A DNA stretch of 42,000 nucleotides from a virus. The notes beneath the pieces were generated by a model. The model was not told where the DNA came from. It did no database searches and saw only the letters and a list, made by a program, of their open reading frames with translations. The position numbers and the translations under genes are program-made. Positions 2,593 to 42,000 of the stretch are shown in pieces; positions within the stretch are counted from its first letter, which is position 1, and every line of letters begins with the position of its first letter. The DNA lies in the IMG/VR virus record IMGVR_UViG_3300035180_000489, positions 1 to 42,000 of that record; one strand, 5' to 3'.

Positions 2593-3762
2593 TTAAGCCC
2601 AAGTATTTGAGACTTCGGCAAGTAGAGAGCCGAGTGCGCCTAAATGTATATAGAGAAGTTTCTTTCCAGCGAGGCTTCCAGCACCATCGTAGATCGTGTA
2701 ATTTACCAACGGGCGGCTATGACACGGTGCAACCACACCGTTCAAATATCCTCGAACCGTGTAGTTATATGGTTCAATTACACGAACTGGACTAGTCCAC
2801 AATCCGCCATCAACAGGTGACGGATATGCCAACCCGTTATAGTTACCTCCGATCGAAATGAGCATCCCGGGCGACGGGCTAGCTCCGGTTGATATAAATC
2901 TCATATCAACCCCGCGTTGACCAGGAACTGATCCTGGAAGCTGAGTGAACGATCTTGCCAAATACTGTCCACCAAAATAACGGGCCATTTGGCTCAAAGT
3001 CCAGTCGTATCCCTGATGCGCAACTTGCCAGAACTCTCCGCTTGTAGCTGAACTTTGATTTCCACCAATCTGGCAGTTGAAGGCATCCCCTGTTCTGTAG
3101 CTTGTGAAATCGCCAAACGAGAACATATATCCAGAACTAGAGTCGCCCGTATAATCAGTGAAGATATAGAACGTTTTCTGATTACCCCAACAAATGACAC
3201 GTCTCGCAACGCCATTGCTTTTCGGAAACCAGATGCCTCCAGAGAGAAGCGCTGTGGTCGGGAACGGTAGCGATCCTAACGAAATGCCAGTCATCGATTC
3301 GTAACCGATACCGCGGGCGGATGTCGTTCCAGTGTCGTCAACCTGAAGATAGAACCCACTACCAGCAGGTTGACGATACGCAGCGAGATTAGTTCCACTG
3401 AAAGGTTTTGTCCAACCGAGGGGCGTGGCAATTGCAGTAATGGTCCCCGTCGGAGGGGTTGACGGAGTTGTTGCAATCTGAAAGGTGAATGTATTCGCAG
3501 TAACTGAACCAACATCAACTTGAAACATTCCATTGTAGTCGCTAATAGAAGCGCCTGCAATCGTAATCATTTGAAGCTCGCGATAACCGTGTGCGGTCTG
3601 TGTCACAGTTACAGTTGCGCCACTGCGCGAAAGTGCTAGCCCGCTCTGACTATTATAGCCGTTGACAAGAACCTTGTCAAGGAATGTAATCAACGCGCCT
3701 GCGGTATTTGCAAATCCCCCAAGGCCTGTATCAGCACTATCGTAATATGTAGAGAATGCCAT
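2593..3762 (-). CDS. Putative tail fibre / receptor-interacting protein, copy 1 of a tandem pair
   Basis: This 389-residue paralogue of the following gene lies three bases upstream of it on the same strand. It has the same N-terminal block (MAFSTYYDSADTGLGG ... FLDKVLVNGYNSQ), then a beta domain with TAHGYRELQMITIAGA and DYNGMF. Next come LGWTKPFSGTNLAAYR, DDTGTTSARGIGYESMT, and a divergent C-terminal half ending GAGSLAGKKLLY. Conserved N-terminus with variable C-terminus is the usual pattern of adhesins that attach by one end and bind receptor with the other. Which of the two is the main receptor-binding protein cannot be read from the sequence. Confidence 0.7.
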   Translation of the reverse strand: MAFSTYYDSADTGLGGFANTAGALITFLDKVLVNGYNSQSGLALSRSGATVTVTQTAHGYRELQMITIAGASISDYNGMFQVDVGSVTANTFTFQIATTPSTPPTGTITAIATPLGWTKPFSGTNLAAYRQPAGSGFYLQVDDTGTTSARGIGYESMTGISLGSLPFPTTALLSGGIWFPKSNGVARRVICWGNQKTFYIFTDYTGDSSSGYMFSFGDFTSYRTGDAFNCQIGGNQSSATSGEFWQVAHQGYDWTLSQMARYFGGQYLARSFTQLPGSVPGQRGVDMRFISTGASPSPGMLISIGGNYNGLAYPSPVDGGLWTSPVRVIEPYNYTVRGYLNGVVAPCHSRPLVNYTIYDGAGSLAGKKLLYIHLGALGSLLAEVSNTWA

Positions 3763-3771
3763 GATGACACC

Positions 3772-4041
3772 TTAAAGGGTCTTGATAAATTTAACGGACA
3801 TATTGCCTGCAAGCTGTCGGCTATTTGGCCTGACACCCGAGCTAACAACTACACCCGTCGGAATAGGATTTCTCTTAAATACAGCGGAAATCTTGCCAAA
3901 GTTCGAAGGCGTATTAGGCAATGGGTAGCCTAATAGGTTACGGGATTCAATTCGAATTTCTTTAAAGACAGACGACGATGGTGGAGTGCGAACGATGTTC
4001 CGTTTCGCCATATTCCCGTCAACACCAGTTACTGTGGTCAT
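3772..4041 (-). CDS. Hypothetical phage protein in the tail fibre operon
   Basis: This 89-residue basic protein begins MTTVTGVDGNMAKRN. It shows no signal peptide, membrane segment or motif I recognise. The start overlaps the upstream stop by four bases (ATGA), and ten bases separate it from the following fibre gene. It may be a small virion component or a fibre assembly protein. Function unknown. Confidence 0.6.
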   Translation of the reverse strand: MTTVTGVDGNMAKRNIVRTPPSSSVFKEIRIESRNLLGYPLPNTPSNFGKISAVFKRNPIPTGVVVSSGVRPNSRQLAGNMSVKFIKTL

Positions 4042-4379: not shown

Positions 4380-5945
4380 TTAGACGCTCATCCAGAAAAG
4401 ACAATCGTTATCTGAAATCGGTGAGGTTGATCCAGATCCTGTGCCACCGCCGGTTGCAGTGATTGTAATGTTCGGCCATGCGCCTGACAGTGTAATGCCT
4501 ACTCCACCGACCGCCGCGGGAGAAGCGGTCCCAGTCCCGCCATTAGCTTGCGGAAGAATACTTGATCCGACTTGCGACGTTAGATCGATCGTGGTGGAGA
4601 TAACCTGCCAAGTCGCATCTTCGCGAAGATAGCGAGTGGCGCCTGCGCTTGCACCAGGATCCGGAACTGCACCTTGAGCGTGGCCCGTACCCGATGCACC
4701 AAATGTCGGATATTGAGTTGCTCCTAAAGTCCCGCTACTGATATTCGAAGCGTTAGTCGTGTCAGTAGTTGCAGATGTTGCAAGACCGCTAACGTCACCT
4801 GCTGCAATTGCAAGAGCGGTCTTTAACGCAGCCGCTGTAATTACTCCATACAGACCAGCAACCGAAATAACTTCGTTCGAGATACCATCGATCTTATCCC
4901 AAACTGTACCGTCGAAGACAATCACGTCCCCTACGTTCCATTGTGAAATACCATCAATCGTTGTTGTGCCTGCAGTCGAGACTTTATAGTACCAACCTTT
5001 TGTTCCAGTCCCACTCGCGAGAGCGGGGCTATTTGCGTTTGCATCCCAAGTGGTTTGATATTGCAGCGCGCCAAGAACAGCGGACGGCAATTGAGACGTT
5101 GGAACTTTACCGCTACCATCAAGAGTTGCTACGCCGTTCGCTACACCAGCGAAGGCAAGATCAGCTATCACCAATGCGCGGAGAGCAGCCTGAGCCGCGC
5201 CGCCGCTTGTCGGCCCTGCAAGCACAAGATTTGCCGCCGCTGTAACCAGCTGGCTAATGTCGCTGAGGCCTAGCGTTACAGCACCAGTCCTGCCAGCAAC
5301 GCTTTGGACAGGCACCGTACTGACCACATTGGTTCCGTCCGAAACTAATGTAATCGTGGAGCCTTGTTTGACGGCAACTCCGGTTCCTGATACTGTCTTA
5401 ACTGTTAAGGTGTATGCACCGGACGTATTATTGCTGACTGCCCAAGTCTGAGGGCTGTCTGGAACAATGATGTTGATGTTACCCGTTAGCGTGCCGGTAA
5501 AGTTGAGGATGTCATTTCTAGCTTGTGCAGCCGTCAGAATAACGTCCGTGCCGCCCGCTACACTGAGATTCAACCTACCGGCGAAGCTACGAGGAGCGAT
5601 CCAAGCGCGATAATCAACTGTTGCAGTAACAGTTGATCCGCTGGTTGTTTTTTGATAGAGAGGAAGTCTTCCCGGCGTGAATCCGGTCGTATTCTTACTG
5701 ACCACACCGGCTCTGGTAGCTTCGACATAATTCGTCGAGCTTGCAGTAAGAGCGACAGTCCCATCTGCAATAGAGGTTAACACACCATCTACTTCAAGTG
5801 TGCCGCCTTTGTATCCAAAGACCAATCCAGCCGTAGTTAGAACATCTGGTCCGAACAAAGCTAGAGGATCTAGCACGCCAAAGTTTTCATTCAGGATAAC
5901 GTGTGCGTTTACCTGTCCCTCTGCGAATTGTACGAACGCGCTCAT
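4380..5945 (-). CDS. Tail fibre protein
   Basis: This 521-residue protein is rich in Gly, Thr, Ser and Ala. The N-terminus (MSAFVQFAEGQVNAHVILNENF) resembles phage proteins that attach to the distal tail. The middle contains SVAGRTGAVTLGLSDIS and ASVAG/VISVAGLYGVIT, the short shaft-like repeats common in tail fibres. It also has a GVATLDGSGKVPTSQLPSAVLG segment found in many fibres, and a C-terminal SILPQANGGTGTASPAAVGG motif. It follows the hub gene at a 7-base spacing. No chaperone or peptidase domain is visible at the C-terminus, so the distal adhesin part may be one of the downstream proteins. Confidence 0.8.
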   Translation of the reverse strand: MSAFVQFAEGQVNAHVILNENFGVLDPLALFGPDVLTTAGLVFGYKGGTLEVDGVLTSIADGTVALTASSTNYVEATRAGVVSKNTTGFTPGRLPLYQKTTSGSTVTATVDYRAWIAPRSFAGRLNLSVAGGTDVILTAAQARNDILNFTGTLTGNINIIVPDSPQTWAVSNNTSGAYTLTVKTVSGTGVAVKQGSTITLVSDGTNVVSTVPVQSVAGRTGAVTLGLSDISQLVTAAANLVLAGPTSGGAAQAALRALVIADLAFAGVANGVATLDGSGKVPTSQLPSAVLGALQYQTTWDANANSPALASGTGTKGWYYKVSTAGTTTIDGISQWNVGDVIVFDGTVWDKIDGISNEVISVAGLYGVITAAALKTALAIAAGDVSGLATSATTDTTNASNISSGTLGATQYPTFGASGTGHAQGAVPDPGASAGATRYLREDATWQVISTTIDLTSQVGSSILPQANGGTGTASPAAVGGVGITLSGAWPNITITATGGGTGSGSTSPISDNDCLFWMSV

Positions 5946-25077: not shown

Positions 25078-25094
25078 GGGATTCTCCTAGAGGA

Positions 25095-36998: not shown

Positions 36999-37032
36999 GG
37001 CGTAGTTCTCCTAGAACGGTTACTGGTAAGTT

Positions 37033-37061
37033 AGTATAGTGCAGAAGGTTAGAGGTTGCAA
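37033..37061 (-). promoter_or_regulatory. Sigma-70-type leftward promoter
   Basis: Read leftward: TTGCAA at 37061-37056, a 17-base spacer and TATACT at 37038-37033, followed by AACTTACC. The element is very similar to the terminase promoter (TTGCTG, 17, TATACT). It drives the gene at 36998 and probably the left arm. Confidence 0.82.
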
Positions 37062-37355
37062 GTTGACCTGACGAAAAGTATTTAGCTCGAGATCCTATAT
37101 GTAGAGGGAGATGTGAAATAGAGATAAGATAACCCGAGATCAGATAGGATATGAAGTAAGAAATGTTGTGAATTAAGAAAGGTCATGAATATAGGACGGA
37201 GGGTCAAAGTTGGTGAGAATGAGGTCGCGATCGCCAGCCCCGTTACATTCTGTTACTGATCAGGGTGACCTTGTATGCCAACTGGCTTGCCACTCGCACC
37301 GAACTGGCGTGCCAGAGTGGCGCCTCGTTCAGTTACATTGTTAAGAAGTGTAAAG

Positions 37356-37399
37356 AAGGGTTTACCCTTATACCAGTCACCTCCTGGTCCACCTATACT
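37356..37399 (+). promoter_or_regulatory. Probable rightward promoter: palindrome plus -10 box
   Basis: TATACT at 37394-37399 is a good -10 box but has no fair -35 at 15 to 19 bases. The 14-base palindrome AAGGGT-TT-ACCCTT (37356-37369) is centred about 43 bases before the expected start point. That is where an activator replacing the -35 contact would bind. This is inference from spacing. Confidence 0.5.
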
Positions 37400-37432
37400 A
37401 TATTTGTGGGTCCGGGGTGCATCGGGCCCTGT

Positions 37433-37456
37433 CGGTGTGGCAATTCCGCCACACCG
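37433..37456 (+). promoter_or_regulatory. Leader stem-loop before the gene at 37488
   Basis: CGGTGTGGC and GCCACACCG form a perfect 9-bp stem with the loop AATTCC in the 5' leader. No T run follows. The ribosome binding site TTCTAGGGG lies about 15 bases downstream. Confidence 0.7.
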
Positions 37457-37487
37457 GGTTTCCACTATCCTTCTAGGGGTAATTACC

Positions 37488-37928
37488 ATGTCGCAAATTT
37501 CCAACGTTCCTTCCGCTTCCAATCCAATCGTGGCGACTTTGCCACGTGTTCCGCGTGCTGGGGGACTGTGTGCCCAAGTGTGGGACATTTGCCACGCAGC
37601 AGCAAAAAAGGGCGCACCAATCCAGTCCAAGGAAATTAGTGGCATTTGTGCAACGCTTGGGCTAAATTTGAACAATTTTAAAATTGAGCGTTCCTGTTAC
37701 AATCGGTTCGTGGCGGGCGGGGGACAGTATGGGGCGCCCGCTGTTGTCGCGCAGGAACCACTTAGCATGTCGGACGTGTTGCTGTCCAACATGCTTGCAG
37801 CTCGCCCGGCGCCGGTGCTGCCCGTTGCAACGGAAATTACACCGGAGGTTCCGCAGGTAGCAGCGGAGGTTCCGCAGGTAGCAGCGGGCAAGGGCAAGGG
37901 CAAGGGCAAGGGCAGCAAAAAGCACTAA
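37488..37928 (+). CDS. Hypothetical protein, first gene of the rightward arm, with Lys-Gly tail
   Basis: This 146-residue product starts at the ATG at 37488, preceded by TCTAGGGG; the open frame further up is not coding. The N-terminal half (LPRVPRAGGLCAQVWDICHAAAKKGAPIQSKEISGICATLGLNLNNFKIERSCYNRFVAG) looks like a winged or homeodomain-like DNA-binding fold. The linker contains two copies of EVPQVAA, and the end is GKGKGKGKGSKKH, a basic tail. DNA binding is likely but unproven. Confidence 0.75.
   Translation: MSQISNVPSASNPIVATLPRVPRAGGLCAQVWDICHAAAKKGAPIQSKEISGICATLGLNLNNFKIERSCYNRFVAGGGQYGAPAVVAQEPLSMSDVLLSNMLAARPAPVLPVATEITPEVPQVAAEVPQVAAGKGKGKGKGSKKH
37844..37913 (+). repeat. Tandem 21-base repeat and GGGCAA hexamer repeat inside the gene at 37488
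   Basis: Two adjacent 21-base units encode EVPQVAA twice (37844-37885). They are followed by about four GGGCAA hexamers that encode the Gly-Lys tail. Both tracts are in frame and could change length by slippage. Confidence 0.85.
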
Positions 37929-37944
37929 TCCGGTGCATCCCAGC

Positions 37945-37974
37945 TAAGGGTAAACCCGCAAGGGTTTACCCTTA
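37945..37974 (+). promoter_or_regulatory. Intergenic 13-bp stem-loop with GCAA tetraloop
   Basis: TAAGGGTAAACCC and GGGTTTACCCTTA pair perfectly around GCAA. The right arm repeats the palindrome at 37356-37369. ATTCCTTCC follows, so it is a poor terminator. It precedes the small gene at 37994 by 19 bases. Confidence 0.75.
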
Positions 37975-37993
37975 ATTCCTTCCAGGAGAAATC

Positions 37994-38083
37994 ATGCTCG
38001 CAACTATCGTCGTTGTTGTCACGTCCATCGAGGTCCTGCTGGTCATCGGTGCTTTGTATCAATACTCCGCGCATCGGAGGTAG
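37994..38083 (+). CDS. 29-residue single-span membrane peptide
   Basis: The product MLATIVVVVTSIEVLLVIGALYQYSAHRR is almost entirely one hydrophobic helix with a basic end. AGGAG lies six bases before the ATG. It stands in the rightward operon between two hairpins. Such micro-proteins in early phage regions often act on host membrane proteins, but nothing specific can be said. Confidence 0.65.
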   Translation: MLATIVVVVTSIEVLLVIGALYQYSAHRR

Positions 38084-38085
38084 AC

Positions 38086-38112
38086 AAAAAAATCCAAACC
38101 TGTGGGTTTGGA
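38086..38112 (-). terminator. Terminator facing leftward (antisense to the operon)
   Basis: On the minus strand TCCAAACC pairs with GGTTTGGA (8 bp, 4-base loop) and is followed by seven T. On the plus strand the A run precedes the hairpin, so it terminates only leftward transcripts. It would stop antisense RNA from entering the control region. Confidence 0.65.
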
Positions 38113-38137
38113 AGATGCGATAATTTTGTCGCATCTT
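38112..38137 (+). promoter_or_regulatory. Leader stem-loop before the gene at 38166
   Basis: AAGATGCGA and TCGCATCTT form a 9-bp stem with an 8-base loop (TAATTTTG), directly next to the leftward terminator. GTCTAGGAG follows before the start codon. Confidence 0.7.
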
Positions 38138-38165
38138 GGAAGCCCACTCTGTCTAGGAGAGCAAC

Positions 38166-38510
38166 ATGGTATCCCGTTGGAACAAAAATCGGCTATCGGA
38201 TCCGCATCATCCGAACTGGAACGCGCACTCGCCCGCAGTCAAGCAACTGCTAGGACTGGAACCGACACAAAAACTTCCCAAGGAGGGCATGTCCGCACGC
38301 ATCGTGGAAGGCATCAAGATTTGGGTAACGCCTTACATCCCGACAATGAGCATCAATCGTTGGACCGGAAAGACAGTGCTGGTCAAGACCAGCAAGCACC
38401 GCGTGATGGGGCAATGCCCGCAGTGCAATCGCGAAATGTCCGCCGGGCGTCTGTTTCAACACGTCTGCACCGGAACCAAGCAACAAAAGCTGGACATCCG
38501 AGAGCTCTGA
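38166..38510 (+). CDS. Hypothetical protein with zinc-binding CxxC...HxC motif
   Basis: In this 114-residue protein the C-terminal part contains Cys84 and Cys87 (CPQC), His99 and Cys101 (FQHVC), a probable zinc ribbon. The N-terminal part is basic (MVSRWNKNRLSDPHHPNW) with no known domain. CTAGGAG lies seven bases before the ATG. It may bind nucleic acid or a host protein. Family unknown. Confidence 0.75.
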   Translation: MVSRWNKNRLSDPHHPNWNAHSPAVKQLLGLEPTQKLPKEGMSARIVEGIKIWVTPYIPTMSINRWTGKTVLVKTSKHRVMGQCPQCNREMSAGRLFQHVCTGTKQQKLDIREL

Positions 38511-38511
38511 A

Positions 38512-38625
38512 ATGGACTGCTGTACGCAATTTGTCCAATATCAACGCTTCTGCGCGAAGTGGCACATCCAACCTCAAGGATTTGCTCACTTTGTCGTCGA
38601 TGTGTTTCCTTTCACAATCTTCTAG
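38512..38625 (+). CDS. Possible 37-residue peptide
   Basis: The product MDCCTQFVQYQRFCAKWHIQPQGFAHFVVDVFPFTIF starts one base after the upstream stop. Its stop TAG lies inside the TAGGAG ribosome site of the next gene, a compact arrangement. It has no clear ribosome site of its own, so coupling to the upstream gene would be needed. Moderate to low confidence. Confidence 0.4.
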   Translation: MDCCTQFVQYQRFCAKWHIQPQGFAHFVVDVFPFTIF

Positions 38626-38633
38626 GAGTTAAG

Positions 38634-38837
38634 ATGAAACTGCAACACGCGATAGACAGAGCAATCGAAATCAGCAAGGAAGAAAAATGCACGCAGCATG
38701 TCAATGCCACCGTGCGTCTGACGCTTGAGGACAACGGAAAGTTCGAGGCAAAAATCCGGTACGATATTTCTGACTGGTTCTCCAGCGACGCAACAGTCTA
38801 CTCTGCGACCAACGGGTACGGAGAGCGGACTTACTGA
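38634..38837 (+). CDS. Small hypothetical acidic/basic mixed protein
   Basis: This 67-residue product starts at the ATG with TTCTAGGAG upstream (MKLQHAIDRAIEISKEEKCTQHVNATVRLTLEDNGKFEAKIRYDISDWFSSDATVYSATNGYGERTY). A helix followed by a beta meander is likely. No family is recognised. Confidence 0.72.
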   Translation: MKLQHAIDRAIEISKEEKCTQHVNATVRLTLEDNGKFEAKIRYDISDWFSSDATVYSATNGYGERTY

Positions 38838-38853
38838 TAACCACACTGGTTCG

Positions 38854-39004
38854 GTCCGCGACGTCGGGAGACGTCGCTTGACTACAATTCCAAATTCGTA
38901 TTGGACTTCAGACGCGTGAGCGTCTGAAGTCGTTGATAACTCTCAAATGACTGGTGGCATTTGAGCGAAAATCTGAGCATCATATTCCAAAATTAAATTT
39001 GGAA
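38854..39004 (+). repeat. Array of four hairpins in a non-coding stretch
   Basis: Perfect stems follow one another: GCGACGTC/GACGTCGC (8 bp, 38858-38877); GACTTCAGACGC/GCGTCTGAAGTC (12 bp, GTGA loop, 38904-38931); CTCAAATG/CATTTGAG (8 bp, 38942-38965); TTCCAAA/TTTGGAA (7 bp, 38985-39004). None is followed by a T run. A GCGGAC/GTCCGC pair (38825 and 38854) may form a further stem. The array could be a structured RNA, a set of processing sites or a protein-binding region. Confidence 0.7.
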
Positions 39005-39207
39005 ACGACGCACGACTAAGTTACGAAAATAATTGTAGCATGTGATGCAAAATCGTGCAAGCGATTGACTAAATGAAGTTTTTGTCGTGATAGTTCACAT
39101 GACGGTTAAATGTTCATGTTTTTATCGGACGAATCGATTTTACCCCCGATTTAGCAGGTAGTTAGTATAGATAATATATGTATATATAAGATAAAATGCT
39201 GGTTTGC
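39005..39207. other. AT-rich gene-free stretch
   Basis: No gene is visible. It contains AGTTAGTATAG at 39160-39170, a word shared with other control regions, and the AT-rich run ATAATATATGTATATATAAGATAAAAT at 39171-39197 (in two parts). A promoter in either direction or a duplex-unwinding element of an origin is possible, but no -35 box is convincing. Confidence 0.4.
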
Positions 39208-39296
39208 CGAGGGAGAGGCGAAGTATGAATCGTGTGTTCAGGTCGAGATCATTTCGAACTAACGTTCTACTAAAAACACTTATCGCCTCCCCCTCG
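39208..39296 (+). ncRNA. Possible structured leader RNA or small RNA with an anti-Shine-Dalgarno arm
   Basis: CGAGGGAGAGGCG (39208-39220) pairs with CGCCTCCCCCTCG (39284-39296) with one mismatch. After a two-base bulge AAGT pairs with ACTT. The 53-base loop holds GTTC, GAAC and GTTC segments that can form alternative small hairpins. The left arm carries a Shine-Dalgarno-like AGAGG before an ATG, and the right arm contains CCTCC. Downstream AAAACG/CGTTTT with TTTTT may be a weak terminator. No homologue is known to me. Confidence 0.4.
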
Positions 39297-39356
39297 ACTA
39301 CTACAAACAAAACGTTATTTCGTTTTTGCTATCGGAGTCCCTATTATATACTATAG
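39225..39356 (+). CDS. Possible 43-residue basic peptide under a ribosome-site-blocking hairpin
   Basis: The reading frame MNRVFRSRSFRTNVLLKTLI ... ends at the TAG in CTATAG. AGAGG lies six bases before the ATG, but this site is inside the long stem, so translation would be blocked when the RNA folds. Composition (Arg, Ser, Thr, Leu) is not typical of a folded protein. Its end overlaps a likely promoter. It may be a chance frame. Confidence 0.25.
   Translation: MNRVFRSRSFRTNVLLKTLIASPSTTTNKTLFRFCYRSPYYIL
39347..39352 (+). promoter_or_regulatory. Possible -10 box for the gene at 39389
   Basis: TATACT at 39347-39352 repeats the -10 box of the other phage promoters. TTGCTA at 39326 is 15 bases upstream, short of the optimum. 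Transcription would start near 39359, leaving about 30 bases of leader with no Shine-Dalgarno sequence. Confidence 0.45.
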
Positions 39357-39388
39357 GTCCCTCCCCTAAACTCCATTTATTCACTATC

Positions 39389-40027
39389 ATGGCTGCACTT
39401 CTTCCATCACCATTCGATAGCCCTGCAAATCCAATTCCATTGTCCCTTACTCCAGAACAGGAAATGGATTTAATTCAAGTCCCTGAAAAGTACCATGCTG
39501 AAATCTTCCACTATCTAACATCTAAAACGGAAGACGAAAATTGGACTACTATCACAACTGTCCCGCAAGCACACGCACACGCAATCAAAATGCATCAGCA
39601 AGCGCGGATGCTAAAGGATGCAGCAGACCCTGTGGTCAGTGCTAAAGTCCAAAAAGAATTTCAAGAGCGGATCGAAGCTGCAGAATCGAATTCAAATCTT
39701 TCGTCTCGCGCAATTGCAAACGAAAGATATATCGCTGCTTGCATCGAACGCAAAACCAAGCTCAAGGAACTTAATGCTCAGAAGCAGGCGCTCAAACTTA
39801 AAATCCGCACCGCTGCATTCGCGCCGAAACCGATTTCAAATGACCACAAGCTGTTTCTAGCTTGGGCTGAGGCGGAGCGTGCCAAGTGCGAAGCCTATAT
39901 CCTCGCTCATAAGCCTGCCGACATCGAATACGAAACAAAAGGTGATTTGCAAATGAAACTTCTAGTCGTTGAATCTGAAATGGAACAACTTGAAAAGAAA
40001 CTTCCTCAGTTTAAGGACTACTTATGA
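39389..40027 (+). CDS. Hypothetical coiled-coil protein without a Shine-Dalgarno site
   Basis: This 212-residue product starts at the ATG of ATCATGGCTGC. A Pro-rich start (MAALLPSPFDSPANPIPLSL) is followed by long helices rich in Lys, Glu and Ala (AKVQKEFQERIEAAES, CIERKTKLKELNAQKQALKLKIR, MKLLVVESEMEQLEKKL). No catalytic motif is visible. Unlike its neighbours it has no TTCTAGGAG box or leader hairpin, and it is richer in A. It may have been acquired separately. The frame also opens at a TTG 63 bases upstream, which I consider less likely. Confidence 0.68.
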   Translation: MAALLPSPFDSPANPIPLSLTPEQEMDLIQVPEKYHAEIFHYLTSKTEDENWTTITTVPQAHAHAIKMHQQARMLKDAADPVVSAKVQKEFQERIEAAESNSNLSSRAIANERYIAACIERKTKLKELNAQKQALKLKIRTAAFAPKPISNDHKLFLAWAEAERAKCEAYILAHKPADIEYETKGDLQMKLLVVESEMEQLEKKLPQFKDYL

Positions 40028-40047
40028 ACTTCCGTTACATTGTAAAG

Positions 40048-40078
40048 TTGCGACTGTCCTGAACATCCTTTGTATAAT
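40048..40078 (+). promoter_or_regulatory. Rightward promoter with consensus -10 box
   Basis: TATAAT at 40073-40078 is a perfect -10 box. TTGCGA at 40048-40053 is 19 bases upstream, longer than ideal. GTTACATTGTAAAG lies just upstream and is similar to a word at 37332. The promoter would serve the gene at 40125. Confidence 0.6.
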
Positions 40079-40124
40079 GGTACATGCGCACAATGGGGTG
40101 GGCATAAATCTAAAGGATGTGGAA

Positions 40125-40385
40125 ATGCAAGTTTTTGTCCTGTTTAGCTTTACTGGTGCGTCCAATTTGAGCGTGCATAGCTCCGTGGAAAAAGCCAAGG
40201 ATGCGCTTGCTACTGTTCTGGGCACGTTTGGGAACATCCAAGAGGAGTTTCAGTACGATGCATCCAAGTGGGTGGATTCGTTTGGGACTGGTATGCAATA
40301 CGTTTACGACACCGGAAGCTCCGGTTTCATTGAGGATGTGTACATCCTGCAACTGGAACTGGATAAGGTGTACGAAACAAACTGA
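40125..40385 (+). CDS. Small hypothetical protein
   Basis: This 86-residue product starts at the ATG with AAGGA eight bases upstream; the frame above it overlaps the previous gene. The sequence MQVFVLFSFTGASNLSVHSSVEKAKDALATVLG ... DASKWVDSFGTGMQYVYDTGSSGFIEDVYILQLELDKVYE suggests a small ferredoxin-like alpha/beta fold. The ending FIEDVYILQLELD is an often-seen form of small phage proteins. Function unknown. Confidence 0.68.
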   Translation: MQVFVLFSFTGASNLSVHSSVEKAKDALATVLGTFGNIQEEFQYDASKWVDSFGTGMQYVYDTGSSGFIEDVYILQLELDKVYETN

Positions 40386-40388
40386 GAG

Positions 40389-40437
40389 TATCGCTCGCAA
40401 GGATTGCAGATGAATCCTTGCAGCGGTATTTTCCGCA
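40389..40437 (+). promoter_or_regulatory. Structured leader RNA, copy A of a covarying pair
   Basis: TATCGCTCGCA opens the element. CGCT, a bulged C and GCAAGGAT pair with ATCCTTGC and AGCG (12 bp, 9-base loop). GCGG at 40423 can instead pair with CCGC at 40433. The ribosome site TTCTAAGGAG follows. The element at 41203 has the same frame with different but still paired stem bases. Confidence 0.75.
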
Positions 40438-40456
40438 ATTTCTAAGGAGTTAGAAA

Positions 40457-40627
40457 ATGTCCGTTGCTGGTGCTATCCGCAAGAAGCTCACGTCCGGTTA
40501 TGCTCACCTGGGCAACGCACGCAAGCGTCCGCGCTTGAAAGGCGCGTCGAACCGCTCCGTGTCGGAGTCCATCGCCGCTGCGCGTCGGACGGCTGCGCGT
40601 CAGGCCGCTGCGTCCAAGAAGAAGTAA
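40457..40627 (+). CDS. 56-residue highly basic protein
   Basis: The product MSVAGAIRKKLTSGYAHLGN ... ends RRTAARQAAASKKK. Lys and Arg dominate, with Ala-rich helices. CTAAGGAG precedes the ATG. The codon choice (CGC, CGT, GCT, AAG) is of a strongly expressed type. Binding to DNA or RNA is a reasonable inference from charge. It is too short and basic for an enzyme. Confidence 0.75.
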   Translation: MSVAGAIRKKLTSGYAHLGNARKRPRLKGASNRSVSESIAAARRTAARQAAASKKK

Positions 40628-40634
40628 TTTCCAC

Positions 40635-40673
40635 ACTAAGCGGTGACAGCGCTTAGTCCGGGAGCTATTTCCC
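40635..40673 (+). promoter_or_regulatory. Leader stem-loops before the gene at 40698
   Basis: ACTAAGCG and CGCTTAGT form an 8-bp stem (40635-40657). GGGA/TCCC follows (40660-40673) around a CTATTT-containing loop, then TTCTAGGAGG. The arrangement of a main stem, a small stem with an AT-rich loop and then the ribosome site is like the pair at 40389 and 41203, but the sequence differs. Confidence 0.65.
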
Positions 40674-40697
40674 AAGCAACCTTTCTAGGAGGTGACA

Positions 40698-40943
40698 ATG
40701 GTCGATGTAAAACTCACTGAAGCGCAAACGCTGGCAGTCCTTGAGCGCGTGCAAGGTCAAATGTCCATGCTCAAAAACTGTATCGCTCGTGCAGTCGAGT
40801 CTGGAAACTACACTTACGGTTCTACCGAGTTGTCGGGCTTCGAATACGCCCAGCAAAATCTGTTGCCCAAGTTGCGGGAAGAAGAAAGCCTGTTCAGAAC
40901 GATTAACGGTGCCTACCTCCACGCCACGAAAGTTCTGTGGTGA
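40698..40943 (+). CDS. Small hypothetical helical protein
   Basis: This 81-residue product starts at the ATG five bases after AGGAGG; a GTG two codons upstream overlaps the ribosome site and is rejected. The sequence VKLTEAQTLAVLERVQGQMSMLKNCIARAVESGNYTYGSTELSGFEYAQQNLLPKLREEESLFRTIN is a helical hairpin-like protein. No family is recognised. Confidence 0.72.
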   Translation: MVDVKLTEAQTLAVLERVQGQMSMLKNCIARAVESGNYTYGSTELSGFEYAQQNLLPKLREEESLFRTINGAYLHATKVLW

Positions 40944-41017
40944 TGGACCACAACGATAAGGAACTTCCTTGGCTGATTGTGATCCTGGTGATCACGTTGT
41001 TTATCATCTTCTGGTAG
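40943..41017 (+). CDS. 24-residue single-span membrane peptide
   Basis: The product MDHNDKELPWLIVILVITLFIIFW has a charged seven-residue start followed by one hydrophobic helix to the end. The start overlaps the previous stop (TGATG), which indicates translational coupling. Its stop lies in the TAGGAGG of the next gene. The arrangement supports a real gene. Confidence 0.6.
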   Translation: MDHNDKELPWLIVILVITLFIIFW

Positions 41018-41025
41018 GAGGTAAG

Positions 41026-41199
41026 ATGGACCATCCTGGACCAATCACTATGTCGGATGCAGACGAATTCGACAACTTCGGAGACTCGGATCTCGCGCAA
41101 CTCATCTATCACTGCATCACCTTCCGCGATCCTGTGTGGGACAAGCAAAAAATTGCACGCGCTGTCAATGAGTTGGACAGAAGATTCAACCGTAGTTGA
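41026..41199 (+). CDS. Small acidic hypothetical protein
   Basis: The 57-residue product (MDHPGPITMSDADEFDNFGDSDLAQLIYHCITFRDPVWDKQKIARAVNELDRRFNRS) starts at the ATG with TAGGAGG six bases upstream. The N-terminus is very acidic and the rest helical. The function is unknown. The compact spacing to both neighbours shows one operon. Confidence 0.7.
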   Translation: MDHPGPITMSDADEFDNFGDSDLAQLIYHCITFRDPVWDKQKIARAVNELDRRFNRS

Positions 41200-41202
41200 G
41201 TG

Positions 41203-41251
41203 TATCGCTCGCATACATTGCGCGTCAGTGTATGCAGCGGGATATTCCGCA
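41203..41251 (+). promoter_or_regulatory. Structured leader RNA, copy B of a covarying pair
   Basis: TATCGCTCGCA is followed by CGCT, a bulged C and GCATACA pairing with TGTATGC and AGCG (11 bp, 11-base loop). GCGG at 41237 can pair alternatively with CCGC at 41247. TTCTAGGAG follows. Compared with copy A the inner stem changes on both sides and stays paired. Confidence 0.75.
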
Positions 41252-41265
41252 TTCTAGGAGCTGAA

Positions 41266-41943
41266 ATGTCAATCGAACGAATCATGGAGAAAATCCAAAA
41301 GTGCTTCGCGCTTTCCAAGTCTTCGAACGCGGGCGAGGCAGCAAACGCTCTGCGTCAGGCGCAGGCAATGATGCGCATCCACAACATCAGCGAAGACGAA
41401 ATCGGTCTGATGGGGTACACGGAACAAAAAGTTTCCCTGCCTGTGCAAGTGAACAAGAAGCATCCGGTCTACATTGCGCGCATGAACGCGCTGATTCGCA
41501 AGGCATTCGGCGTTGCAACGGTCATCGAACATGAAATGCGTGTTAGCGATAAAAGCTACGCCATCCGCATCTTCGGGCCCAAGAACCGCGTCCCTCTGGC
41601 AGCATACGCCTACGCGGTAATGTTCCGCGAGATGAACAAGGGTTGGACGCAGTACATCGCAAACAACCCGCATCTGGTTGGCGTCCGCGGTGGGCGTACC
41701 GGATTCCTTCTGGGCTGGATCGAGTCAGTGGACGAAACCATTGTGGACTTTGGTGCCAACAAGGAGGAAGTTGATGGTACGGAAGCTCTCAAACTTCAGT
41801 ACTACGACGGTAGCCTGCGCAATGTCAGTCCAAACGCATTGCGCGTCCTGAGTAGCACACTGAGCGCAGGCAACGCAGCTGGCGCGGACTTCCGTCTCCA
41901 TCGTCCAATGGGCGGCGTGGAGCGCATCAAGATTAGCAACTAA
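41266..41943 (+). CDS. DUF2786-containing phage protein
   Basis: In this 225-residue product the N-terminal 50 residues (SIERIMEKIQKCFALSKSSNAGEAANALRQAQAMMRIHNISEDEIGL) match the DUF2786 pattern: I..L..LA.S.N..EA..A...A..LM..H.I...E. The rest (FGVATVIEH, IRIFGPKNRVPLAAYAYAVMFREM, GFLLGWIESV) fits the domain that usually follows DUF2786 in phage proteins. The biochemical role is not known to me. TTCTAGGAG lies five bases before the ATG; an upstream in-frame start would remove the leader structure. Confidence 0.82.
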   Translation: MSIERIMEKIQKCFALSKSSNAGEAANALRQAQAMMRIHNISEDEIGLMGYTEQKVSLPVQVNKKHPVYIARMNALIRKAFGVATVIEHEMRVSDKSYAIRIFGPKNRVPLAAYAYAVMFREMNKGWTQYIANNPHLVGVRGGRTGFLLGWIESVDETIVDFGANKEEVDGTEALKLQYYDGSLRNVSPNALRVLSSTLSAGNAAGADFRLHRPMGGVERIKISN

Positions 41944-41960
41944 ATTCTTGTTGCTTTCTA

Positions 41961-41996
41961 GTTTGCGTCGGTATACAATACTGTACCGACGCAAAC
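41961..41996 (+). promoter_or_regulatory. Stem-loop at the window end, leader of the next gene or terminator
   Basis: GTTTGCGTCGGTA pairs with TACCGACGCAAAC over 13 bp; the loop allows two more pairs. It follows the gene at 41943 and fits the series of leader hairpins in this arm. Only ATTA is visible after it, so a terminator role cannot be judged. TTGCTT and TACAAT 17 bases apart (41951 and 41974) may be a promoter. Confidence 0.6.
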
Positions 41997-42000
41997 ATTA

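Follow-up and report, generated by a model that had tools for sequence, protein, structure and literature searches.

Four junctions in the gene cluster that we call early in this virus each carry an irregular hairpin, and the set to which these belong has at least four members. We consider it very likely that these are selected RNA hairpins of some kind at early gene junctions, and we give a probability of about 50% to the reading that they are RNase III-type intercistronic processing signals like those of the T7 early region, because their geometry and position fit, while cleavage is only predicted. An earlier note, which covered two of the four, had offered a processing site, a site for a phage protein and a switch as options; the first of these is now the best supported, and a translation switch in the form then put forward is unsupported.

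Genomic setting of the hairpins

The window, that is, the whole stretch of DNA that was analysed, is a 42-kb virus record. Its large terminase is 65–70% identical to those of Acinetobacter phage HD01, Pseudomonas phage Iggy and Escherichia phage slur01, which are phages of the 9g kind with genomes of ~57–64 kb, and on sequence grounds the source virus appears to be a 9g/Nipunavirus-like siphophage. The late genes of the window run leftwards, and from 37.4 kb on there is a rightward cluster made up of small genes without known function together with a DUF2786/DUF7168 protein. We call this cluster early on the basis of its position and by analogy with related phages. The motif TCTAGGAG occurs 8 times before start codons in the window, against 0.75 expected, with listed sites at 25084, 26186 and 37008 on the − strand and at 38152, 38621, 40684 and 41253 on the + strand; it is a phage-specific ribosome-site motif found in both gene classes, late gene starts included.

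We also noted several features of the window beside the hairpins. A type IV pilin gene on the − strand (973–1392; Pfam Pilin, E 1.5e-16; N-terminal methylation motif, E 2.2e-10) adjoins the tail-side genes of this tailed-phage genome and is an unusual cargo, perhaps pilus-related. The neighbouring genes at 1402–2589 and 2593–3762 (− strand; 395 and 389 aa), for which there was no Pfam match, have the same start, MAFSTYYDSADTGLGG, and share a 121-nt DNA repeat that is 85% identical; they represent a tandem duplication. A 9-bp inverted repeat, ACATCCTTT/AAAGGATGT, at window positions 40063–40120 has one arm beside a TATAAT, while the other arm covers the ribosome site of an 86-aa gene, and this repeat may be an operator. 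At 41961–41996, soon after the stop of the DUF2786 gene and 4 bases before the end of the record, an inverted repeat with 13 perfect base pairs, or 15 bp when folded, surrounds TATACAAT, and could be either a junction hairpin or an operator.

Structure and placement of the hairpins

The four hairpins are referred to here as leaders 0 to 3. Leader 1 (40384–40433, + strand) has 21 bp, consisting of a lower stem of 12 bp, a bulged C and an upper stem of 9 bp, closed by a 7-nt loop. It begins within the TGA stop (40383–40385) of the 86-aa gene (40125–40385, + strand) and ends 24 nt before the ATG of a gene for a 56-aa basic protein (40457–40627, + strand), which has no family match. Leader 2 (41198–41247, + strand) likewise has 21 bp, arranged as 6 bp, an A·G mismatch, 5 bp, a bulged C and 10 bp, with a 5-nt loop; it begins within the TGA stop (41197–41199) of a 57-aa gene (41026–41199, + strand) and ends 19 nt before the ATG of a 225-aa gene (41266–41943, + strand; DUF2786 and DUF7168, phrog_421). 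Folding of the whole junctions showed that the lower stems of leaders 1 and 2 continue to 11–12 pairs, beyond the stem given in the earlier note.

The other two hairpins were absent from that note. Leader 3 (40621–40671, + strand; z −2.8) has 19 bp (6 bp, an A·C mismatch, 5 bp, a 2x2 loop and 8 bp) and a 7-nt loop, spans the TAA stop (40625–40627) of the 56-aa gene, and ends 27 nt before the ATG of an 81-aa gene (40698–40943, + strand) with no family match. Leader 0 (38101–38148, + strand; z −6.1) lies between a 29-aa ORF (stop 38081–38083) and a gene starting at 38166, from whose ATG its end is 18 nt distant; it is composed of a lower stem of 8 bp, a GG/GG 2x2 loop, an upper stem of 11 bp and a 4-nt loop. 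Both have the build of lower stem, internal loop and upper stem that is seen in leaders 1 and 2, without the sequence frame that those two have in common.

Simpler hairpins in the same cluster show the start-codon spacing of the leaders. One of them (37945–37974, + strand; z −6.9) has 13 perfect base pairs and a GCAA loop and stands 20 nt before the ATG (37994) of the 29-aa ORF; since it has no internal loop, it falls outside the descriptor set defined below. Another (37432–37457, + strand; 10 bp; z −2.4) lies in the leader of the gene starting at 37488 and does not have the two-stem build, and a weak hairpin before 38634 is likewise placed relative to its start codon.

A scan of the + strand for intrinsic terminators (a GC-rich hairpin plus a T run) flagged none of leaders 0–3. 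Searches with Rfam covariance models gave 0 matches in the window, and the best weak match within 37000–42000 had an E of 1, far below the cut-off. On the minus strand, a good intrinsic terminator at 38093–38112 (8-bp stem, TTTTTTT) sits inside the leader of the gene at 38166, where it would stop leftward antisense transcripts. The PeSL (promoter-early-stem-loop) cassettes of T4-type phages are stem-loops between early genes that carry an early promoter. The leaders resemble them in being stem-loops at early gene junctions that might travel together with modules, and differ from them in that no promoter-like site was found in leaders 1–3.

Excess of the hairpins over chance

We expressed the common build as a descriptor, namely an upper stem of at least 8 bp, an internal loop, and at least 8 of 9 pairs below it. 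The descriptor matched leaders 0–3, two further + strand sites that lie opposite late genes (22021 and 22946), and one place on the − strand of the window. When the 5-kb early region was shuffled 500 times, each shuffle gave an average of 0.154 descriptor matches; at the score of the leaders, 0.012 matches were expected (largest 1) against 4 observed, a chance figure that is optimistic, as the limits of the descriptor were fixed after leaders 1–3 and T7 had been seen. That one descriptor also recovers R0.3 (853–901), R0.5 (1428–1479) and R1 (3102–3148; all positions of the T7 record) in the early DNA of T7, with nothing on the other T7 strand; R1.1 and R1.3 do not pass it.

The starts of the cluster stand out by folding energy as well. 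For the 58 nt before rightward cluster starts, the median folding z was −2.7, while a set of 693 other starts, drawn from the window and 11 relatives, had a median of −0.24 (Mann-Whitney p 1.3e-4), and z was below −4 at 4 of 10 cluster starts (−6.9, −6.1, −5.8 and −4.5), compared with 0.9% of 536 starts in 80 loci of other phages; the starts were called with a crude purpose-written caller, and some are wrong in all groups.

Paired changes between leaders 1 and 2

Leaders 1 and 2 form a 55-nt direct repeat, 75% identical, whose copies (40383–40437 and 41197–41251) lie 814 nt apart and each span from the upstream TGA stop to just before the ribosome site of the next gene. This is the second-longest direct-repeat family of the window, and no further copies of the frame were found within the window, giving two in total. 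When the 49-nt leaders were compared, 36 of 49 columns were identical and 13 differed. The frame described earlier, comprising TATCGCTCGCA, TGCAGCGG and AT.TTCCGCA together with a bulged C, is present exactly as reported in both leaders. The accompanying observation that the inner stem has changed on both sides and is still paired also holds: the stem reads CGCU-C-GCAAGGAUU / AAUCCUUGC-AGCG in leader 1 and CGCU-C-GCAUACAUU / AGUGUAUGC-AGCG in leader 2, with three double changes from leader 1 to leader 2 (pair 12-30, A-U to U-A; pair 13-29, G-C to A-U; pair 14-28, G-C to C-G), one change to a G-U pair (pair 16-26, U-A to U-G), and 0 pairs broken.

All 14 pairs survived 13 random substitutions in leader 1 in 214 of 400,000 trials (~5 in 10,000), and survived 7 substitutions confined to the stem in 114 of 400,000. 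The fold of leader 1 has a z of about −5 and was equalled by 0 of 200 shuffles; that of leader 2 is weaker, with a z of −2.1 to −2.4, and was equalled by 4–6 of 200. The earlier note had taken the compensatory changes as direct evidence that the fold is selected. Two paralogous copies do not bear so strong a conclusion, since paired changes can also be made when an imperfect palindrome undergoes templated correction. The stronger argument for selection is that leaders of unrelated sequence within one gene cluster have the same build.

Search for homologues in relatives

Part of what the earlier note had set as refuting the conserved fold was a lack of further copies with covariation in related phages, and no such copies were found; the frame is so far known only from this phage. 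Exact and degenerate frame patterns gave only chance matches in IMG/VR and GTDB genomes, mostly in coding DNA and none with a hairpin plus a ribosome site, and when each leader was compared by blastn with 50,697 phage records, the best E was 2. A 5.9-kb contig whose terminase is identical ends before it reaches the leaders. We built a covariance model from leaders 1 and 2, whose scores for these two (71 and 69 bits) are circular and were not used as evidence; its top score was 15.6 bits (E 0.15) among relatives, of which 935 kb were searched, and 16.0 bits in the 413 kb surrounding 80 DUF2786 genes. Two relatives have DUF2786 homologues (41% identity) without the leader, one of them preceded by another small hairpin and the other by nothing notable, and protein searches of IMG/VR with the 225-aa early protein and a 212-aa one alone returned no relatives. 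The sequences of leaders 1 and 2 thus seem to belong to this phage or to a narrow, unsampled group.

Folding upstream of starts in 11 relatives revealed no hairpin array, and most of the strong cases resemble terminators. The descriptor gave 82 scattered matches in the 670 kb of these relatives, one of which lies within 27 nt of a called start. Among individual loci, another phage (L286) has at ~2410–2462 a nearly perfect hairpin of ~22 bp, 39 nt before a tblastn-matched DUF2786 gene and with no T run after it, which is an independent case of a long junction hairpin. In a relative (L121), two early genes have short hairpins ~5–20 nt before the ATG (3800–3850 and 4456–4485), with arms TGCGCAACAC/GTGTTGCGCA and ACGCACCC/GGGTGCGT, and one of the two is without a clear Shine-Dalgarno between hairpin and ATG.

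Proposed processing by RNase III and the main alternative

By analogy with T7, we infer that the cluster would be transcribed as one message, and that at each junction this polycistronic message would form two short helices, stacked on either side of an internal loop or bulge. Near the loop, on the 3′ side and ~27–37 nt before the next AUG, it would then be cut by host RNase III. The downstream gene would thereby gain a separate mRNA whose ribosome site is open, and the upstream mRNA a protective hairpin at its 3′ end, with whatever effect on expression this may have. The fold, the placement from stop to start, the excess over chance and the match in geometry with three T7 sites are observed and speak for this reading, as do the paired changes between leaders 1 and 2 and the terminator scan that flagged no leader. 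Against it are the hairpins at 37432 and 37945, which do not have the two-stem build and for which a broader stabilising role may account better along with all the others, and the relatives, which are without such hairpins at the corresponding positions. If RNase III processing is the function, message splitting by this enzyme would have arisen or spread more widely, by way of hairpins of unrelated sequence, and a simple geometric descriptor could be used to seek such sites in other phages. Sequence searches miss them, as not one of the letters is common to the leaders and even their nearest relatives in the sample.

The main rival to RNase III processing is that these are plain stabilising or insulating hairpins, which would remain uncut, protect mRNA ends and shield the ribosome site from upstream sequence, one per junction and with no specific enzyme involved. 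Such a role would extend to the simple hairpins at 37432–37457 and 37945–37974 and to the weak one before 38634, and it suits ribosome sites that are open in both of the folds considered below. It does not explain, however, why four hairpins have a common build of lower stem, internal loop and upper stem, nor why a bulged C is conserved together with a conserved lower stem, and we regard it as possible but on the whole unlikely.

An alternative fold in three leaders

The proposal that GCGG has two mutually exclusive pairings is supported. The second pairing forms a hairpin, B, which draws on the 3′ strand of the lower stem; in leader 1 it consists of GCGG-6 nt-CCGC within 40420–40436 (+ strand) and is exclusive with the lower stem. 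Its equivalents are GCGG-6-CCGC in leader 2 and GGGA-6-TCCC in leader 3, where the pairs differ. Partition function calculations gave the long form a probability of 1.00, 0.75 and 0.97 in leaders 1, 2 and 3, respectively, and hairpin B a probability of 0.00, 0.25 and 0.01 as long as the 5′ strand was free. With the 5′ strand of the lower stem blocked, hairpin B reached at least 0.996 in leaders 1–3. The chance of hairpin B in shuffled segments was 0.05, 0.06 and 0.19 for leaders 1, 2 and 3, of which leaders 1 and 2 are not independent. A switch of translation between these two folds, as originally suggested, finds no support here, in that the Shine-Dalgarno is covered by neither fold and the long fold dominates by computed energy.

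In a conceivable variant that senses translation, a ribosome at the upstream stop would cover the 5′ strand of the lower stem and free the 3′ strand for hairpin B, and this would alter how the next gene is processed or initiated. In leaders 1–3 the covered strand does coincide with the stop codon region and the bases that immediately follow, its blocking in the calculation brings out hairpin B in all three, and leader 3 builds its B from other pairs than leaders 1 and 2. However, hairpin B has only 4 bp and arises in shuffled segments at the rates given above, leader 0 is without it, and the Shine-Dalgarno is free in both folds. We find such a switch improbable, and would be slightly more sceptical still of the specific version in which upstream translation would select either the long hairpin, sensitive to RNase III, or a form split into the upper hairpin and B; each junction, by its processing, would then report translation of the preceding gene.

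Repeats at the DNA level and other rivals

About as doubtful as that last version is the idea that the leaders act as DNA, either as linkers for modular shuffling or as sites for a DNA-binding protein like the extended start-associated sequences (ESAS) of cluster K mycobacteriophages; in that case leaders 1 and 2 would be direct repeats that remain from an insertion of the intervening four-gene stretch. The 55-nt repeat, which reaches from a stop codon to a ribosome site, lies on either side of genes without relatives, and TCTAGGAG is in excess at ribosome sites, both of which would suit such a role. A protein site, however, keeps its letters, whereas the leaders change letters and keep pairing, and the other two leaders have the same build with no common sequence. 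The likeness to start-associated sequences (SAS) and ESAS lies in an inverted repeat just upstream of a ribosome-site motif at several non-structural genes (PMC3203893). The conserved 13-bp GGGATAGGAGCCC that defines SAS before starts is not what we see, as starts here carry TCTAGGAG or variants of it and, unlike SAS, TCTAGGAG is also at late gene starts; nor do the leaders have the 17-bp inverted repeats with conserved half-sites of ESAS, their inner stems differing from one another. The authors who described ESAS argued that its departures in sequence do not support RNA pairing (PMC3203893), which is the reverse of what the leaders show: the sequence of ESAS is kept, while the leaders keep their pairing as the sequence changes.

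It is very unlikely that a chance hairpin was duplicated once and acquired its paired changes by templated correction of an imperfect palindrome, with no selected function; there are just two homologous copies and the frame was not found in relatives, which would fit, but four hairpins stand in 5 kb where 0.012 were expected by the optimistic shuffle figure, each likewise placed between genes. Finally, a polymerase-modifying antiterminator RNA like HK022 put, which the leaders recall by their two similar copies, bulged stem and two adjacent stem-loops in one fold (leaders 1 and 2 in the B form, with one unpaired A between), is extremely unlikely, given that put RNAs are ~70 nt and lie downstream of two early promoters, once per operon (PMC9378689), whereas the leaders are shorter (~50 nt), recur between genes 0.8 kb apart and adopt the two-stem-loop form as a minor one, and that the searched part of HK022, which may not hold put, gave no covariance-model match.

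Comparison with the RNase III sites of T7

The leaders are like the T7 early sites in lying in the early region, with one hairpin per junction, an internal loop or bulge, and an upper stem of 8–11 bp. In T7, how RNase III cuts the early messages has been worked out in detail. A T7-type site is an irregular hairpin, roughly two helical turns long and interrupted by a central loop or bulge, and the leaders have 19–21 bp in this form; such a site is placed between co-transcribed genes just before a ribosome site, and the leaders have this placement, in genes that would presumably be co-transcribed. When folded with the same program, T7 R1 gives 4 bp, a 1x1 mismatch, 5 bp, a 2/3 loop and 9 bp, a geometry close to that of leaders 2 and 3. 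The distance from the end of the hairpin to the ATG is 24, 17 and 23 nt for R0.3, R0.5 and R1, respectively, compared with 18–27 nt for the leaders. R0.5 overlaps the stop of gene 0.4 just as leaders 1–3 overlap upstream stops, and R1 begins 2 nt after gene 0.7. The internal loops and bulges of the leaders are ~27–37 nt before the ATG, and Dunn and Studier are said to have placed the T7 cuts, in 1983, at 27–35 nt before the starts of genes 0.3, 0.5, 1 and 1.3.

The leaders and the T7 sites share no sequence homology. Leaders 1 and 2 have a 1/0 bulge and leaders 0 and 3 have 2/2 loops, versus the 2/3 loop of T7 R1. R1.1, which comes from the junction of T7 genes 1.0 and 1.1 and serves as an RNase III substrate of 60 nt with an internal loop (PMC6121014), has a large asymmetric loop (4/5 nt) that limits the enzyme to one cut, and the leaders are without a loop of this kind. 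The extra, mutually exclusive hairpin B of leaders 1–3 likewise sets them apart from the T7 sites and, if it proves to matter, would make the leaders a variant of the T7 type.
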